Source: Arsukibacterium sp. UBA5043
Lineage (GTDB): Bacteria > Pseudomonadota > Gammaproteobacteria > Enterobacterales > Alteromonadaceae
NCBI GenBank assembly: GCA_002415085.1
Contig: DIBV01000006.1
Span: 378,684-442,683, forward strand
Length of the DNA: 64,000 bases
Direction of reading: 5' to 3'
Shown here piece after piece: positions 34,100 through 40,477 of this stretch (the stretch's first letter is position 1; every line of letters starts with the position of its first letter). The position numbers were made by a program, and so were the translations under genes. The notes beneath the pieces are model-generated. The model saw only the letters and a program-made list of their open reading frames with translations. It had not been told where the DNA came from and searched no databases.

Positions 34100-34840
34100 T
34101 CACTCTGCAGGGGGCTTGAGCCAGAATTTAACAAGTATATACAAAAAACAACTCAATACATTTTTTTTAGTTTCATCAAGATTTCTGCTGAACGATACGG
34201 TCCCACTGTACATTGGTCTAGGACCATCACAAGAGTGAGAAAAAGTACCTGTTACCTTTGAGGGTCTTTTCCCTTCTTCAGACCCAACAACTAGAATTTC
34301 CTCGAACCCTTTTGACGATTTAGGTAGTTTCTCGTCCTTATCAATGCCCTGTTTATACTGTACCTCATATGCGTATCTAAGGCCGGGTATCCCCTTGTCA
34401 TAGGAGATAGTAGCGACCGTTGAATTCCAGCCATGAAATGCATCTGTTTCAGCATAATCTATCCTAATTGATAGACAATCTTGCTTGAAACTTATGTCAT
34501 GAAGTTTTTTGAAAGGGGAGAATTTTGACTCAGTGCCATTTTGGCTGTCTAAGTACTGACAACAATATTCAGTATGTCCTTGCCAAGTACCTTGAAAATC
34601 GAGTTCTGGATAGGCAATTCGCCATAATGATTGCCTTACAAGCTTTTCAGAGAATAAGAATATTCCACCAATTACCGCTGCAGAAGTTAACGGTGCAAGT
34701 ATTCCTTTAAGAAAATTGTCGGGTGCTAGTGACCATAAATAAGCTAGCAATAACCCAATTAATATGGATAGAGTCCATACTAGTCTACTTAATGCATACC
34801 TATGAAACTTATGTAATTTATCCTGCATAAAAATTTCCAT
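34100..34840 (-). CDS. Cap15-like 2TM/beta-barrel protein
   Basis: 246 residues. Two N-terminal membrane helices (about 18-40 and 45-68), then LWRIAYPELDFQGTWQG and a beta-rich soluble domain up to about 225. This order, with the 'P.L.G.W.G' entry into the barrel, resembles the SMODS-associated 2TM-beta effector (Cap15) of CBASS antiphage systems, whose barrel binds a cyclic dinucleotide. No CD-NTase gene is nearby, so it would be an orphan receptor or a relative with another job. The assignment rests on pattern, not on a search. Confidence 0.55.
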   Translation of the reverse strand: MEIFMQDKLHKFHRYALSRLVWTLSILIGLLLAYLWSLAPDNFLKGILAPLTSAAVIGGIFLFSEKLVRQSLWRIAYPELDFQGTWQGHTEYCCQYLDSQNGTESKFSPFKKLHDISFKQDCLSIRIDYAETDAFHGWNSTVATISYDKGIPGLRYAYEVQYKQGIDKDEKLPKSSKGFEEILVVGSEEGKRPSKVTGTFSHSCDGPRPMYSGTVSFSRNLDETKKNVLSCFLYILVKFWLKPPAE

Positions 34841-34998: not shown

Positions 34999-35268
34999 TC
35001 ACGCATCACTCACTTTGATTGAAGGAAATGAGCCACTAAGAAGCTCAATAAACATTCCAAACACTTCAAGGTAATCTCCTGAGCGGTGGCAGAGTATGCT
35101 TGAGCCATCAATCTTCATCGCAAAACTCATTTTATGTGAATTATGCTCAGTTATGACCCAAGTATCATTTTTCTTATGGCTCTTAAAATCAGTGCAAAAA
35201 TCTACAATAAATGCTTCTAACTGGGCCTCGGAGGCTGACTCAACGGTAATTTCTTGGGCTAAACCCAT
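34999..35268 (-). CDS. Small protein of unknown function in the island
   Basis: 89 residues, acidic, no signal peptide or membrane helix; predicted alpha-beta content (EAQLEAFIVDFCTDFK, MSFAMKIDGSSILCHRS). Not recognised. CGGAGAG is well placed upstream, and a GTTAAAT heptamer (integron core GTTRRRY) lies 18 nt before the start, as in a gene cassette. The MITE-like element begins right after the stop codon. Confidence 0.65.
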   Translation of the reverse strand: MGLAQEITVESASEAQLEAFIVDFCTDFKSHKKNDTWVITEHNSHKMSFAMKIDGSSILCHRSGDYLEVFGMFIELLSGSFPSIKVSDA

Positions 35269-35502: not shown

Positions 35503-35904
35503 CTACAACCAAAGCCGTAACAGGCTGGCCGTTATGAGCGCCAGATAGGTAACGGCGACGGTGGGTTTGGCGGCTTGCTTGGCATAGCCGAGGATTAGCT
35601 GTAGCGGGTTTTGGCGTTGATATTGCCACTGGCTGTGCCACTGACAACCAATATCCTGTGCCTGTAGTATTGCTTGCTCCAGTTGCAGCAAACGGTTGGC
35701 AGCGCGTTGCTGCCAGGTTTTAAGAATGGCCTCATGCAGCCAGAACAAGCCGATAACACCGAGTTGCAGTTCAATTGCGGCGCCACTTTTTAATAGCCAC
35801 AGCCATACCAGAATGGTGACGACTTTAAGCCATAATGCCTGCTGCTCTTGCTTGTCATAGCTTTGCTGAACTAACAGCCACTCTGCCTGATTCTTGTCGG
35901 TCAT
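35503..35904 (-). CDS. Small membrane protein at the end of the RiPP operon
   Basis: 133 residues with hydrophobic helices at about 26-46, 48-62 and 115-133, separated by a Gln-rich cytoplasmic-type stretch (WQQRAANRLLQLEQAILQAQ). Not recognised. 26 nt after the anti-sigma gene and the last gene in its run, so possibly part of sigma-factor control or of copper handling. Confidence 0.65.
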   Translation of the reverse strand: MTDKNQAEWLLVQQSYDKQEQQALWLKVVTILVWLWLLKSGAAIELQLGVIGLFWLHEAILKTWQQRAANRLLQLEQAILQAQDIGCQWHSQWQYQRQNPLQLILGYAKQAAKPTVAVTYLALITASLLRLWL

Positions 35905-35930
35905 ATTGCTTCCTTGCCCGGATATTGCGG

Positions 35931-36638
35931 TTAAATAAACTTAAGTTGTTGCTGAAGTTTAGCCGGTAATTGCTGTAAATCCTGCTCATTTTCACTTATC
36001 ACCACTAAATCGGCGGTTTTTAGGGCCAAACTGCGACCACGGTATGTGCCATCAGAGAAATGATGCTCAAATTTCAGCTGATTATCCGCCGGCACCACAA
36101 ATACCGTCGCCAAACCTTGTTCGGTTTGCAGCACCAAATGTAAAGAACGGGTACCGCGAAAATCACAAAAATTGGCATAAACAATAGATTGCGGCCAGTC
36201 GCTAAGTTCAGCGCCAAAGCTGGCCAGTTTTGCGTTAACCTGAGTCAGCGGTTGCGGTGCCAGCATTTGGTCCATATAGGGGGCTTCGTGATAAACATGC
36301 GCCAGGGCATGCTGGCCTAAGGTCATATCAGGAAAACCATAGTTAAACCAGTTCAGGGTAAGGCCGGCAACAAAGGCAATAGACGCCGCCAGGGCAATGG
36401 CGCCGCTGAAACGTTTGGTCTGAGTACGCTGACTCAACTGCATTTGCTGACGCAACAGCTTTATCGGTAACGTATCGGGTACCTCAAGGCTAAGTGCTTG
36501 CTTGATACGAGCCTGGTCCAGTAGTAACTGGCGTTGCAGTTGTTGCAACTGAGGATCGGCGGCAACGGCAGCAGCGAGCTCACCGGAGCGGGCCAGCGGA
36601 TCAGCAATCAGTGCCTGTCGTATTGATAAATCAGCCAT
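35931..36638 (-). CDS. DUF3379-type anti-sigma factor
   Basis: 235 residues: an N-terminal cytoplasmic helical part (1-78), one membrane helix (about 80-98; IALAASIAFVAGLTLNWF) and a periplasmic domain ending in DLVVISENEQDL. This matches DUF3379 proteins encoded next to ECF sigma factors. Starts 4 nt after the sigma gene stop. It is expected to hold the sigma factor until a periplasmic signal, probably copper-related, releases it. Confidence 0.8.
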   Translation of the reverse strand: MADLSIRQALIADPLARSGELAAAVAADPQLQQLQRQLLLDQARIKQALSLEVPDTLPIKLLRQQMQLSQRTQTKRFSGAIALAASIAFVAGLTLNWFNYGFPDMTLGQHALAHVYHEAPYMDQMLAPQPLTQVNAKLASFGAELSDWPQSIVYANFCDFRGTRSLHLVLQTEQGLATVFVVPADNQLKFEHHFSDGTYRGRSLALKTADLVVISENEQDLQQLPAKLQQQLKFI

Positions 36639-36642
36639 CGCA

Positions 36643-37197
36643 TTACCCCTTTTCTTGCGCGGTCAAACGCTGTTTCAGTAAGTGCCGGGCCCGAAATAAG
36701 CGGGTATTCACGGTATTGACGTTTAAACTTAGTAACTGGCCAATTTCGTCGCTGCTAAAACCTGCCAGGGCCTGCAATAGCAAAGGCTCGCCATATTCTG
36801 GTGGTAACAACATTAACTGTTGTTGCAGCAAGGCGTTATCGTATTGCTGTTCTAATGCCGGATTTAAGTCGTCGGCTAAGGTATCTTGTTCAACATCACT
36901 GTAATCCAGCTGTTTTCGCTCAAAACGCCGGGCGTTTTCCCGCCGTAAAATTGTAATAAGCCAGCTCTTGGCCGCGTTATCGTCCAGTAAGGTATCCAGC
37001 GCTTTCCAGGCCCGTAAAAATGCATCCTGTACAATGTCTTCAGCAATATGCTGATCCCGGCACAGCCAGAAGGCATAGCGATATAAGTCAGCATGGTATA
37101 GCCGCACCAGCTGCTCATAGCGCTGGCTGTTGCTTTGGGCCTTGCGCTTAAATAAAGAGACCGGCAAAGTAAACAGCGTCTTTCGTGATGTAGACAT
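36643..37197 (-). CDS. ECF-type RNA polymerase sigma factor
   Basis: About 184 residues from ATG 37197. Region 2 (LYRYAFWLCRDQHIAEDIVQDAFLRAW) and region 4 (LSSDEIGQLLSLNVNTVNTRLFRARHLL) are clear; region 3 is missing, as in ECF factors. Starts at 37245 and 37269 are also in frame; none has a good ribosome site. Sits between doxX and its anti-sigma gene in the RiPP operon, so it probably drives that operon. Confidence 0.85.
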   Translation of the reverse strand: MSTSRKTLFTLPVSLFKRKAQSNSQRYEQLVRLYHADLYRYAFWLCRDQHIAEDIVQDAFLRAWKALDTLLDDNAAKSWLITILRRENARRFERKQLDYSDVEQDTLADDLNPALEQQYDNALLQQQLMLLPPEYGEPLLLQALAGFSSDEIGQLLSLNVNTVNTRLFRARHLLKQRLTAQEKG

Positions 37198-37299
37198 TAA
37201 TCGGGACTTTTGCTTGGTTGCATGGGTCGTAAGCGTAATTGACATAAGCTGAGCCTGTAAAGCAATCATTTAATCTATAAGCGATGGTGGCCGAAAGCT

Positions 37300-37938
37300 T
37301 CAGTGCCTGGCAGCTATGGAATAACGCTGCTGGCAGTAATGATTTAGCCAGTAGTCGGCGCTGACGTAACGGCCACCACCACTAAAAAACAGGCTTAACA
37401 ACATGGCAAAATAAATTGCCGCAAACTCGATGCCGTTGTTCAGAATAACCAGTTTGCCACTTGAGGTTAGCCAGTCGTAATTACCATGCTGCTGCAGTAA
37501 ATTACGGGCAGCTGCTATTTTTTCGCCGCTTGCCATCACCCGCTCGTTAAGCATAACGGTACCATCGGTCAGCCAGCTGCTGGTATCGGCTATGGCAGGC
37601 CAGCCATAGGGCAGGTGAACGGTAAAAATCGCGACCAGCATTGTTACCATCAGGGGTAGAGCAATCAGCCTGGTTAATAACCCCAGTAGCAGCAAAACAC
37701 CGCCTACTAATTCAGCCGCAATGGCCAGCGCAACCAGCAAGGCAGGAAAAGGCAAGCCAAGGCCCCAGTCACTGTTGCCAAACCAAGAAACTGTACTGTC
37801 AAAACTGCTGAACTTATTCCAGCCGGCCTGGATCAGTACCGGGGCCAGAATAAGTCGGAACAGCAAGAGAGCCAAACCACTTACCTGCGCCAGATGGCGG
37901 GTGGTTTGCAGATACAACGAATAACTTTGTTTAAACAT
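37300..37938 (-). CDS. DoxX-family membrane protein (HvfX type)
   Basis: 212 residues, four or more membrane helices (LALLLFRLILAPVLIQAGWNKF, LLVALAIAAELVGGVLLLLGLLTRLIALPLMV and the C-terminal IEFAAIYFAMLLSLFF). DoxX proteins commonly accompany DUF692/DUF2063 RiPP operons. A periplasmic segment of about 60 residues is inserted before the last helix. Function in the pathway is unknown. 105 nt after hvfC. Confidence 0.82.
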   Translation of the reverse strand: MFKQSYSLYLQTTRHLAQVSGLALLLFRLILAPVLIQAGWNKFSSFDSTVSWFGNSDWGLGLPFPALLVALAIAAELVGGVLLLLGLLTRLIALPLMVTMLVAIFTVHLPYGWPAIADTSSWLTDGTVMLNERVMASGEKIAAARNLLQQHGNYDWLTSSGKLVILNNGIEFAAIYFAMLLSLFFSGGGRYVSADYWLNHYCQQRYSIAARH

Positions 37939-38043
37939 AAACCTTGCCCATTAACCTGTCTCAAATGCTGATACTGAACCAGACCGTGGCCTGACGAATG
38001 TTATTTCAATATTTTGCGTCAGCATGTGGTTTATTTTAAAAAG

Positions 38044-38847
38044 TTAATCCTGAAAACCGCAGATTGCGCCTTTGCCAGCCAGATCCTGCAACAAGGGCAG
38101 GGCGCCCTGCTGTAATTGCTGCTCAGTTAAGCCGGGCAATTGGGCACTGATGGCGGTGATCAGCGCGGGGAATGTCAGGCCGGGTTGCTCAGCTAAATGA
38201 TTTAGCAGTAATAGCGTTGCCTGATTAAGTTGCACAAATTTCACCTGATGATCTGCGTTACGGTACAGCAGAAAAAATACCGGCTGCCCCGGCACAGTTG
38301 GCTGAAAATCAACGCATATTTGTTGTACCGGCCACTGATACGCGCAGAGCATGGCCAGTTCAGACAGCCGTAACCGGATACTTTCGAGCTGTGCGCCAGT
38401 TAATTGCCCGGCTTCAAGTAAAGGCTGGGGCTGGCTGGGGACCAGGGTCGCGATATACAACTCGGCCCATTCGTAATGTGCCAGCTCAGTTAAAAAAGCC
38501 GGGTCGGTGTCAGTAGGCGGGTAGTCTTGCAAAAAGGCCACGAACTGCTCGGCAATATGCAAAAAGTAAGGGCTGTGACAGGCATATTGACGAAAAAACT
38601 GTCGGGCCAGTGCCGTCCAGTTGCTGTCGCTATACAGGGTTTTTAACACCGGAAAAGCAGTGTCTAAAAAGCCTTTAACATTATTAAAAAACAATTCGCG
38701 GTATATCTTTAACCGGCGTGCTTCCAGCCCGGCCGGGGGCGGTGTGCTGCCAGGATCACGAATGTAAGCCGCAAACTGCAGCTGCACCTGTTTGAAATCG
38801 TCGCTGTTGCTATTGTCGTTGTCAGAGTGGCTGGGTTTAGTACTCAT
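38044..38847 (-). CDS. hvfC: DUF2063 RiPP partner protein HvfC
   Basis: 267 residues. The N-terminal DUF2063 part has RRLKIYRELFFNNVKGFLDTAFPVLKTLYSD and FLTELAHYEWAELYI. In Haemophilus, HvfC works with HvfB to modify cysteines of the HvfA precursor, probably by binding the leader. Start overlaps the hvfB stop by 4 nt (ATGA), so the pair is translationally coupled. Confidence 0.88.
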   Translation of the reverse strand: MSTKPSHSDNDNSNSDDFKQVQLQFAAYIRDPGSTPPPAGLEARRLKIYRELFFNNVKGFLDTAFPVLKTLYSDSNWTALARQFFRQYACHSPYFLHIAEQFVAFLQDYPPTDTDPAFLTELAHYEWAELYIATLVPSQPQPLLEAGQLTGAQLESIRLRLSELAMLCAYQWPVQQICVDFQPTVPGQPVFFLLYRNADHQVKFVQLNQATLLLLNHLAEQPGLTFPALITAISAQLPGLTEQQLQQGALPLLQDLAGKGAICGFQD

Positions 38848-39698
38848 ATTGCGAGGTTCTGTTGCATATTTGCGCTGGGCACTTGGTGTTGTAGGGCTCT
38901 GATCATGTCCAGCTCGTGCTGCAGGCTGCTCAGCGCCGGAATATTAAAATCGCGCTCGTATAAGGTCGGTTTTACGCCGTGCTGCAGGTAAGCCTGTTGC
39001 AGTAATTGCCACACTGGGTCCGGAATATCGGCACCGTGGGTGTCGACCAGTAAATCCGGGGCTTCCTGATAATGGCCTGCTACATGATAATAGGCGATAC
39101 GCTCCGAGGGAAGCGCCCGCAAAAACGTGTTGGCATCATAGCCATGGTTCACCGAATTTACATAAATGTTATTTACATCAAGTAATAACTGACAATCGGC
39201 CTGCGTTAGAACTTCATGGATAAAGTCCAGCTCGCTCATTTGCTGGCCAGGGGCGGCATAGTAAGACACATTTTCCAGGATCAGTGGTTGCTCCAGAATA
39301 TCCTGCACCGTGCGTACCCGGGCGGCAACATATTTGGCTGCTTCTTCGGTAAAGGGTATAGGCATTAAGTCGTATAAATGTCCGCCAGCAGAGCAATAAC
39401 TTAAGTGTTCGCTGTACAGCTTTATATTGTGTTGCCGAAAAAAAACCTTTAATTGTTTAATAAAAGCAATATCGAGGGGGTCGGGGCTGCCAATTGACAA
39501 TGATAAACCATGGCAAGCAAAAGCATGGCGCTCAGTCAGCGCTTTAAACTGACTGGCCAGTCTGCCACCGTAAGGCAACCAGTTTTCGGGAGCAACTTCA
39601 AAAAAATCAGCCACCGGGTTGTCGGCAGAGAGCACTTCACTTAGCATTTCCCGGCGCAGGCCAAGGCCTGCTCCGGTTAATGTTGTTGTTACAGTCAC
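38844..39698 (-). CDS. hvfB: DUF692 multinuclear iron oxygenase (MNIO) HvfB
   Basis: 284 residues, TIM-barrel enzyme that uses an iron cluster and oxygen to convert precursor cysteines (oxazolone/thioamide or thiooxazole products in characterised members). Expected metal-ligand motifs in order: EVAPENWL, CHGLSLSIGS, SEHLSY, ENVSYY, LDVNNIYVNS, HVAGHY, DTHG and ERDFNIP. 3 nt after the precursor gene. No missing ligand region is seen. Confidence 0.93.
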   Translation of the reverse strand: MTVTTTLTGAGLGLRREMLSEVLSADNPVADFFEVAPENWLPYGGRLASQFKALTERHAFACHGLSLSIGSPDPLDIAFIKQLKVFFRQHNIKLYSEHLSYCSAGGHLYDLMPIPFTEEAAKYVAARVRTVQDILEQPLILENVSYYAAPGQQMSELDFIHEVLTQADCQLLLDVNNIYVNSVNHGYDANTFLRALPSERIAYYHVAGHYQEAPDLLVDTHGADIPDPVWQLLQQAYLQHGVKPTLYERDFNIPALSSLQHELDMIRALQHQVPSANMQQNLAI

Positions 39699-39701
39699 AG
39701 C

Positions 39702-40124
39702 TTAAGCCGCACCGCACTTGCCTTCGCCACACTTCATTTCTTTACTTTTTTCGGCAGCTTTATCTTCGGCTTTTGCTTTGGCTTTATCAGCACCACATTT
39801 GCCTTCGCCACACTTCATTTCTTTACTTTTTTCGGCAGCTTTATCTTCGGCTTTTGCTTTGGCTTTATCAGCGCCACATTTACCTTCGCCGCATTTCATT
39901 TCTTTACTTTTTTCGGCAGCTTTGTCTTTAGCTTTGTCTTTGGCTTTATCCGCACCACATTTACCTTCGCCACATTTACCTTCGGTTGCGGCAAGCTGAT
40001 ACGCCATACTCAGCTCAGCAGCAGCAAAAGGATTGGTATCGGCATGGGCAGCACCGGCGGCAACAGAGCCTAACGCCATGGCGCCAAGTGCAAGAGATAG
40101 TTGGGTTTTATTAAGTGATTTCAT
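39702..40124 (-). CDS. hvfA: Cysteine-repeat copper RiPP precursor HvfA/bufferin
   Basis: 140 residues. Signal peptide ending AAHA, then a mature part with eight Cys, all in KCG: five EGKCG motifs and three MKCG, arranged as KCGEGKCG pairs separated by Lys/Ala/Asp/Glu spacers (ADKAKAKAEDKAAEKSKE). EGKCG is the motif modified by HvfBC in Haemophilus. The product is expected to be a periplasmic copper-binding peptide. Three near-identical 27-residue units suggest recent repeat expansion. AAGG lies about 10 nt before the ATG. Confidence 0.92.
   Translation of the reverse strand: MKSLNKTQLSLALGAMALGSVAAGAAHADTNPFAAAELSMAYQLAATEGKCGEGKCGADKAKDKAKDKAAEKSKEMKCGEGKCGADKAKAKAEDKAAEKSKEMKCGEGKCGADKAKAKAEDKAAEKSKEMKCGEGKCGAA
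39716..39962 (-). repeat. 81-bp tandem repeat in the RiPP precursor
   Basis: Three units with period 81 bp (unit starts near 39722, 39803 and 39884), differing at only a few bases, mostly third codon positions. Each encodes two Cys in a KCGEGKCG pair. The period is a multiple of 3, so copy changes keep the frame. Confidence 0.9.
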
Positions 40125-40154: not shown

Positions 40155-40205
40155 TTATAAGACCCGACCAATAACAAAGGTATTTCAAAAATTTGAATAT
40201 TTCAA
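40155..40205 (-). promoter_or_regulatory. Probable hvfA promoter region
   Basis: On the minus strand TTGAAATA occurs twice, at 40205-40198 and 40188-40181, exactly 17 bp apart. The second copy is followed after 17 nt by GTC and then TTATAA (40160-40155), compatible either with an ECF -35/-10 pair or with a sigma70 -10. Leader to the hvfA ATG about 25 nt. Not decisive. Confidence 0.4.
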
Positions 40206-40477
40206 TGAACCCGGTAAAAACGACAGAAAAAGTCAATGATGCTGTCCGGGTCAAGCCGGCTGAAATGAACTTTTCTGTTGGCGACGATAATCTCTCCCAG
40301 CGCACGCAACGTATGATCCAGTGGGATCCCGGCAGGGCGCGTTGCACCATGGTCGGCGAATAAAAAGTTCAGCGCCGTAGCGGTGTAAGATTTGCCCGGC
40401 TCTAATTGCACTAATTCCAGTTCCTGCAAACGAACACCAAGATTGCGGATTTTTTGCAGACAATTTTGCTCGTTCAT
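40202..40477 (-). CDS. Small protein of unknown function upstream of hvfA
   Basis: 91 residues, no signal peptide. A CCGGGGG tract 5-9 nt before the ATG could serve as ribosome site. The sequence (LQELELVQLEPGKSYTATALNFLF, GIPLDHTLRALGEIIV) has the composition of a real protein but no family is recognised. Its stop codon falls within the TTGAAATA repeats of the presumed hvfA promoter. Confidence 0.5.
   Translation of the reverse strand: MNEQNCLQKIRNLGVRLQELELVQLEPGKSYTATALNFLFADHGATRPAGIPLDHTLRALGEIIVANRKVHFSRLDPDSIIDFFCRFYRVH

Follow-up and report, generated by a model that had tools for sequence, protein, structure and literature searches.

The 64,000-nucleotide (nt) stretch of Arsukibacterium sp. 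UBA5043 analysed here (contig DIBV01000006.1, positions 378,684 to 442,683; hereafter the window) carries on its minus strand, at 35503-40124, a run of seven open reading frames (ORFs) in the order hvfA-hvfB-hvfC-hvfX, extracytoplasmic function (ECF) sigma factor, DUF3379 and a membrane protein of 133 amino acids (aa). Our analysis makes it probable that the sigma factor and the DUF3379 protein, a putative anti-sigma factor, control a dispersed regulon in which copper sequestration would be joined to the repair of oxidised methionine. The seven-gene cluster is a special case of this putative regulon, a local assembly within one lineage. The initial annotation had taken the run for a self-contained stress-sensing and metal-sequestering module, and it was right about the order and direction of the seven genes and, the 133-aa protein apart, about their families.

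A motif shared by hvf, sigma and methionine-repair genes

The link between these genes is a motif, TGAAATA-N17-GTCTTAT, which lies 5' of hvfA and of hvfX, at the start of the sigma gene and before methionine-sulfoxide reductase genes, even when these are dispersed. Like the genes themselves and the pairing of sigma with DUF3379, the motif and its placement are directly visible in the sequence. In all eight of the 31 genus genomes in which hvf and DUF3379 are neighbours by coordinates (the linked genomes), TGAAATA-N17-GTCTTA is found 5' of hvfA, and close copies also precede unlinked hvfA genes and the hvfX of hvfX-sigma-DUF3379 loci of the genus. The exact pattern TGAAATA-N17-KTCTTA matched 26 times in the 31 genomes, 23 of these matches being at hvfA, hvfX or the sigma gene, and gave no match in the six genomes of the genus without DUF3379; the motif was not found at hvfA in the first three genus genomes read that lack the pair. 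A copy of its own stands ahead of hvfX in all seven linked genomes having this gene (in one, C replaces the initial T) and in all eight of the unlinked genus loci with hvfX-sigma that were fetched, which also trained our weight matrix. Since hvfX keeps its own copy in linked genomes, the cluster has two candidate promoters. P1 (40158..40187, minus strand), an exact match to TGAAATA-N17-GTCTTA 5' of hvfA at which no sigma-70-like site was found, is the candidate promoter of hvfABC. P2 (37978..38008, minus strand), the second copy TGAAATAACATTCGTCAGGCCACGGTCTGGT in the hvfC-hvfX gap, is that of hvfX-sigma-DUF3379-133aa.

Across the order, 81 hvf loci were compared, 57 from genomes with DUF3379 (including the weak matches G017, G039 and G273) and 24 from genomes without it; one locus (L206) had no upstream sequence and another (L180) only 307 nt. 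A strict form of the motif, TGAAA(T/G)-N17/18-GTCT, was present in the hvfA region of 45 of the 57 loci with DUF3379 versus none of the 24 without (Fisher test, 5e-12). The opposite strand of the same regions gave 0 and 0, dinucleotide shuffles lead one to expect 0.31 among the 57, and the weight matrix trained on the genus recovers the same hvfA sites elsewhere. Stand-alone hvfX genes (16 loci from other genera and one from G339) were preceded by TGAAA(T/G)-N17/18-(G/T)TC(T/C), a looser form scored with no control, in 11 of 17 cases, and one of these sites (L154) reaches a weight-matrix score as high as those of hvfA sites.

The same motif leads to methionine-sulfoxide repair. Scanning 394 genomes with the exact pattern gave 71 matches, of which 25 could be placed at hvfA (6), hvfX (2), MsrP-type genes (15, one interrupted by stop codons) and MsrA-MsrB fusions (2). 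Fourteen of the 15 MsrP-type sites come from one genus and are closely similar; six of these were checked singly, and MsrP was recognised by family in two, by like N-terminal sequence in three and by coordinates in one. Of 80 genomes queried, 51 have MsrP; of 15 genomes of the window's genus, none does. In the msrP upstream DNA of 40 of these 51 genomes, taken down the list and chosen to include some without DUF3379, the motif occurred in 13 of 28 genomes with DUF3379 versus none of 12 without (Fisher test, 0.0035), and on the opposite strand in none of the 40. In the window genome, a looser pattern (TGAAAK-N18-KTCTNNT) has ten matches, five inside genes and five intergenic, the latter lying before hvfA and hvfX and, at distances of 76, 135 and 45 nt, before an MsrA-thioredoxin-MsrB fusion, dsbD and a CIA30-type gene, respectively. 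In Neisseria, MsrAB of this kind receives its electrons from DsbD. The window's genus, which is without msrP, thus seems to use msrAB and dsbD instead, as far as these sites indicate, and the putative targets taken together suggest oxidised methionine no less than metal. The copy before the CIA30-type gene lies on contig 3 of the window genome (55524-55554), and an exact copy elsewhere (L356 1041-1777, genome G366) precedes a 221-aa gene of unknown family. An exact match on contig 18 of G000 was rejected as a target, as it lies inside a peptidase S46 gene, and the msrAB upstream DNA gave no match when used as query in a plasmid search.

The motif also stands at the gene of the sigma factor itself. 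Among 106 loci from outside the window's genus (40 + 66), less one duplicate and nine without a recognisable core, it was found at 82 of 96 sigma genes, as would be expected of a sigma factor whose own promoter matches those of its targets. Most loci have it within the opening codons of the annotated gene, some 8 nt ahead of the internal ATG with which the conserved part begins; in others, Pseudoalteromonas rubra and P. luteoviolacea among them, that ATG is itself the start of the sigma ORF and the motif stands in non-coding DNA upstream. Where the sigma gene has an N-terminal extension of at least 14 residues (82 distinct genes), the motif is inside the ORF in 66, across the start in 2 and missing in 14, while all 14 genes without extension have it upstream. 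Synonymous shuffling of the extended genes predicts 1.4 motifs inside the ORF versus the 66 observed, so that the motif in the sigma codons is conserved as DNA letters, in the manner of a putative promoter, beyond the conservation of the protein. In the window, the promoter role for the sigma gene seems to lie with P1 and P2.

DUF3379 and the proposed mechanism

The ECF sigma factor, with its regions 2 and 4, is followed by a membrane protein gene, and the two are conserved as a pair, with DUF3379 adjoining sigma in every one of the 80 named loci that rank best among 519 relatives. The DUF3379 protein of the window has 235 aa, a single hydrophobic span at about residues 76-99 and PF11859 as the only family matched. 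In alignments of 34 and 54 members, H114, C158 and H167 are invariant and E118 is nearly so; all four lie past the span, and the part before it holds no invariant cysteine or histidine. A single span with an invariant outer His-Cys-His set fits an anti-sigma factor with an outer sensing domain, and DUF3379 may be assigned this role on sequence grounds, with its inner part binding sigma. No paper on DUF3379 or PF11859 was found in the literature collection to which our search was confined. In G339, a second PRK12517-type sigma gene without DUF3379 lies beside hvfX (L155 7507-8788), away from the sigma-DUF3379 pair of that genome.

Promoter function, anti-sigma function, topology and signal, as we infer them, would fit together as follows. 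DUF3379 would span the inner membrane once and hold sigma with its inner part, and its outer domain (His114, Cys158, His167) would sense envelope stress, with copper excess and/or oxidants like hypochlorite as its most likely source. Freed sigma would read TGAAATA-N17-(G/T)TCTTAT and switch on hvfABC (for a copper-binding oxazolin peptide whose modified cysteines are predicted to bind Cu(I)), hvfX and its own gene pair. It would also switch on extracytoplasmic methionine repair through msrP or msrAB, and in the window genome dsbD too as a supply of reducing power. Most of the order would keep these targets scattered, and one lineage, probably Arsukibacterium, would have placed hvfABC directly before hvfX-sigma-DUF3379, making one cluster, with the 133-aa gene added at its end.

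A more specific version of this scheme is possible and we offer it tentatively. The sigma-DUF3379 pair may represent a further, undescribed control of the copper-plus-oxidised-methionine regulon in Rheinheimera, Shewanella, Pseudoalteromonas, Photobacterium and their kin, with DUF3379 gated by redox state or Cu(I) through its His-Cys-His residues and with the embedded promoter giving a long and a short sigma factor in a two-isoform feedback switch. Read-through transcripts would then yield the long sigma factor, and a stress transcript starting beside the internal ATG the short one. The first T of TGAAA, which is replaced in the in-frame copies, would otherwise give a TGA stop in the long form. 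A promoter embedded in the coding sequence of a sigma factor is unusual in itself.

Several observations weigh against the dependence of these genes on sigma and DUF3379. Twelve of the 57 hvf loci from DUF3379 genomes are without the strict hvfA motif; seven of these have one-letter variants, and the remaining misses are the locus without upstream sequence (L206), one with a weak site (L205) and three with none (L149, L202 and L207). DUF3379 presence also tracks phylogeny. The hvfB tree gives only four well-supported independent contrasts, of which on average 1.8 agree, 0 disagree and 2.2 show no difference (p 0.5), and with so few contrasts the hvfA motif count alone cannot prove dependence on DUF3379. 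At msrP, 15 of the 28 regions from DUF3379 genomes lack the strict motif, and the looser msrAB and dsbD matches were found post hoc. Motif totals are no higher than those of reversed-pattern controls, with 26 versus 23 matches in the 31 genus genomes, 10 versus 9 in the window genome and 71 versus about 71 in the 394 genomes. The signal is one of placement, not of number, the matches of the reversed controls being themselves unplaced. Finally, no DUF3379 relative was present among the solved structures searched.

Assembly of the cluster and rival explanations

The hvf genes of the window form an oxazolin/HvfA cluster. The HvfA precursor gene (39702..40124) encodes KCGEGKCG repeats, with the repeated EGKCG typical of such precursors, and by hydropathy an N-terminal hydrophobic segment at residues 8-27 that suits an export signal; its product matches NF050137 with 56.8 bits (cut-off 19.5) and stays under the cut-off of the stricter equivalog NF050188 (51.9 versus 95 bits). 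It is followed on the same strand by hvfB (38844..39698), encoding the MNIO maturase (NF003818, 435 bits against a cut-off of 360; PF05114, 348 bits), hvfC (38044..38847) for the maturase partner protein (NF050145, 282 bits; PF09836; PF22106) and hvfX (37300..37938) for a DoxX-family membrane protein (NF050144, 230 bits); all three products exceed their NCBIfam cut-offs. A Buf1 bufferin cluster is not indicated, since the BufB model scores 267.6 bits versus a cut-off of 310 and the precursor has no DUF2282 match. The PRK12517-type ECF sigma gene (36643..37269, minus strand; NF009170/PRK12517, 256 bits; PF04542; PF08281) has an uncertain true start, the first ~43 residues of its product being poorly conserved in the alignment. 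The gene of DUF3379, the putative membrane anti-sigma factor (35931..36638, minus strand), rests on PF11859 (206 bits), alignments and hydropathy. The 133-aa gene (35503..35904, minus strand), a lineage-specific addition to the cluster, encodes by hydropathy two to three hydrophobic segments and has no Pfam family and no NCBIfam match over cut-off. Between the Lon-type protease gene and hvfA lies a 91-aa ORF (40202-40477, minus strand) that is kept at the locus in most genus loci read and has no Pfam or NCBIfam match; the two ORFs downstream of the cluster (34100-34840 and 35002-35268, minus strand) matched no Pfam or NCBIfam family either.

The hvfC-hvfX gap measures 105 nt and the other gaps within the run are at most about 30 nt. 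The initial annotation had proposed a single operon from hvf to the 133-aa gene; the same-direction run with its short gaps stands, and with the same motif at the head of each part, the run probably comprises two transcription units, hvfABC and hvfX-sigma-DUF3379-133aa.

DUF3379 is present in 188 of the 394 genomes of the order and 25 of the 31 of the genus; HvfB is matched in 218 of the 394 (103 over cut-off) and in 30 of the 31. Among the eight linked genomes, five have the seven genes gap-free. In G410 and G413, thioredoxin-like, DsbD-like and TetR genes separate hvfC from the rest, and G413 is without hvfX; in G399 the distance from hvfC to the remaining genes is some 20 kb. Thioredoxin-like and DsbD-like genes stand between hvfC and hvfX/sigma in three linked loci, L050 (9.1-10.9 kb), L057 and L054, accompanied by the TetR gene in the first two, and such inserts fit the thiol-redox theme of the motif's targets. 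Genus loci were read for all eight linked genomes and for 12 of the 17 other genomes with DUF3379. In each of these 12, the sigma-DUF3379 pair lies at the same Lon-type protease locus as in the window, and in 13 of the 17 the coordinates put hvfX immediately next to the pair, with hvfABC elsewhere. Outside the genus the surroundings are others: 35 of 40 DUF3379 loci show a BatD-type gene of a MoxR/VWA run among their upstream genes, and 19 of 20 hvf loci are followed downstream by a gene of apt or dnaX type. The eight linked genes are, in a quick hvfB tree, one clade (support 100) that groups (92) with six genes from genomes without DUF3379, in three of which, all those read, hvf is at the Lon-type locus; ten apt-type genes of the genus are a separate clade (94). 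Given this tree and the Lon-type locus common to linked and unlinked loci, hvfABC probably moved once to that locus, ahead of hvfX-sigma-DUF3379, and the sister group probably lost the pair.

How far, then, do these genes belong together? None of 40 DUF3379 loci of other genera, each covering 19 kb (20 from the same family, 20 from other families), contained an hvf gene, and we therefore rejected the sigma factor as a fixed part of hvf operons. Side by side, hvf and DUF3379 are found in 8 of 31 genus genomes and nowhere in the other genera surveyed, so that the self-contained module of the initial annotation is not borne out, and the lack of co-occurrence that this annotation had itself named as a refutation is largely what was observed; of the pairing it had drawn between sigma/DUF3379 and hvf, the conserved pair holds and the hvf genes appear as its targets, linked to it by motif and not by position. 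That all seven proteins, the 133-aa protein included, form one dedicated unit for stress sensing and metal sequestration is distinctly unlikely. The 133-aa gene, present in 17 of 31 genus genomes, does follow DUF3379 in all eight linked ones and elsewhere in the genus can come right after a cation-efflux (CDF) gene (5 of 7 other genomes read). Against such a unit, it joins the sigma-DUF3379 locus only in those eight genomes, being absent from the 12 unlinked genus loci and the 40 loci of other genera, and only 26 of the 394 genomes of the order have it, its neighbours differing among those looked at; we rejected it as a core part, and its proposed membership of the module does not hold outside the linked genomes. 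A member of its family also lies directly after a CDF gene that closes an arsRC-gapdh-arsJ run (L083 8679-14545).

The opposite view, that hvf came by chance to lie next to an unrelated sigma operon and is transcribed independently, is very improbable. It would explain why hvf and the pair are unlinked in other genera and why genes intervene between hvfC and hvfX/sigma in G410, G413 and G399, but the shared motif is independent of linkage, unlinked genus genomes having it at both hvfA and hvfX, and hvfX was in most of these already with the pair. Somewhat less remote, though still unlikely, is that the motif is the recognition site of a different ECF sigma factor or the binding site of an activator, with sigma-DUF3379 merely a fellow member of the regulon. 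The tie between sigma and motif comes from sequence evidence only, and G339 has a second PRK12517-type sigma gene beside hvfX with no adjoining DUF3379. ECF factors, however, usually read the promoter of their own gene, and the motif is kept at the start of most sigma genes with a recognisable core; its strict form is absent from every hvfA (24/24) and msrP (12/12) region of genomes without DUF3379, and two boxes at a fixed spacing of 17-18 nt suit an ECF promoter. Control of a dispersed regulon by sigma and DUF3379 is thus the reading that we favour.

Relation to known systems and significance

The closest parallel to this putative regulon is found in Haemophilus influenzae, where RpoE2 is reported to be induced by hypochlorite and to control periplasmic MsrAB, the methionine-sulfoxide reductase MtsZ and a doxX/UPF0276/DUF2063 cluster, a regulon compared there with that of Neisseria SigE (PMC7907618). 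The doxX/UPF0276/DUF2063 cluster corresponds to hvf, and hvfA, hvfX, msrP and msrAB are targets here by motif only. The anti-sigma factor of RpoE2, HrsE, is described in the same text as a cytoplasmic protein of 67 aa (PMC7907618), whereas DUF3379 is a 235-aa membrane protein of another family. The predicted targets are alike and the putative anti-sigma factors are not. A locus perhaps from Pasteurellaceae (L188 2662-6092) has hvfX-A-B-C beside a different ECF sigma factor and a 70-aa zinc-finger-like protein, resembling RpoE2-HrsE; its sigma factor is 24% identical to that of the window, the 70-aa neighbour has a sub-threshold zf-HC2 match, and the motif was not found at this locus. The Vibrio parahaemolyticus sigma factor Vp2210 was considered as a further family member and set aside, as no tie to the family of the window sigma factor could be made from the available part of its description (PMC7666205).

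Another comparison is offered by ECF16 sigma factors with NrsF anti-sigma factors, systems to which Azospira and Caulobacter SigF belong. In Brucella, the ECF16 sigma/NrsF pair BcrS-AbcS governs an MsrP/MsrQ-type operon under hypochlorite (PMC8315932). Likeness to the sigma-DUF3379 pair lies in the coupling of a sigma factor with a membrane anti-sigma factor and an MsrP-type target; NrsF differs in having six membrane helices, versus one hydrophobic span and a match to PF11859 only in DUF3379. The accessible sections of PMC12452194 report NrsF in bufferin clusters as well, and describe oxazolin clusters with an HvfA-HvfB-HvfC-HvfX core, some with molybdo-oxidoreductase and ferric-reductase genes, which fits MsrPQ. 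For Buf1 bufferin clusters those sections name sigma factors and NrsF, but neither DUF3379 nor a dispersed regulon, and a sigma-DUF3379 pair for oxazolin clusters is unmentioned in the accessible sections of PMC12452194 and PMC13097082.

To conclude, our results propose a function and a set of controlled genes for DUF3379, so that the family becomes testable as a sensor. They would also tie copper-binding peptides of the ribosomally synthesized and post-translationally modified class to oxidised-methionine repair, a link also made in Haemophilus, where the regulator belongs to a different family. With like predicted targets under unrelated regulators, the signal that the two systems may share (copper, hypochlorite or oxidised methionine) is directly testable. 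The lineage of the window, for its part, looks like a dispersed regulon caught after it had become one locus.

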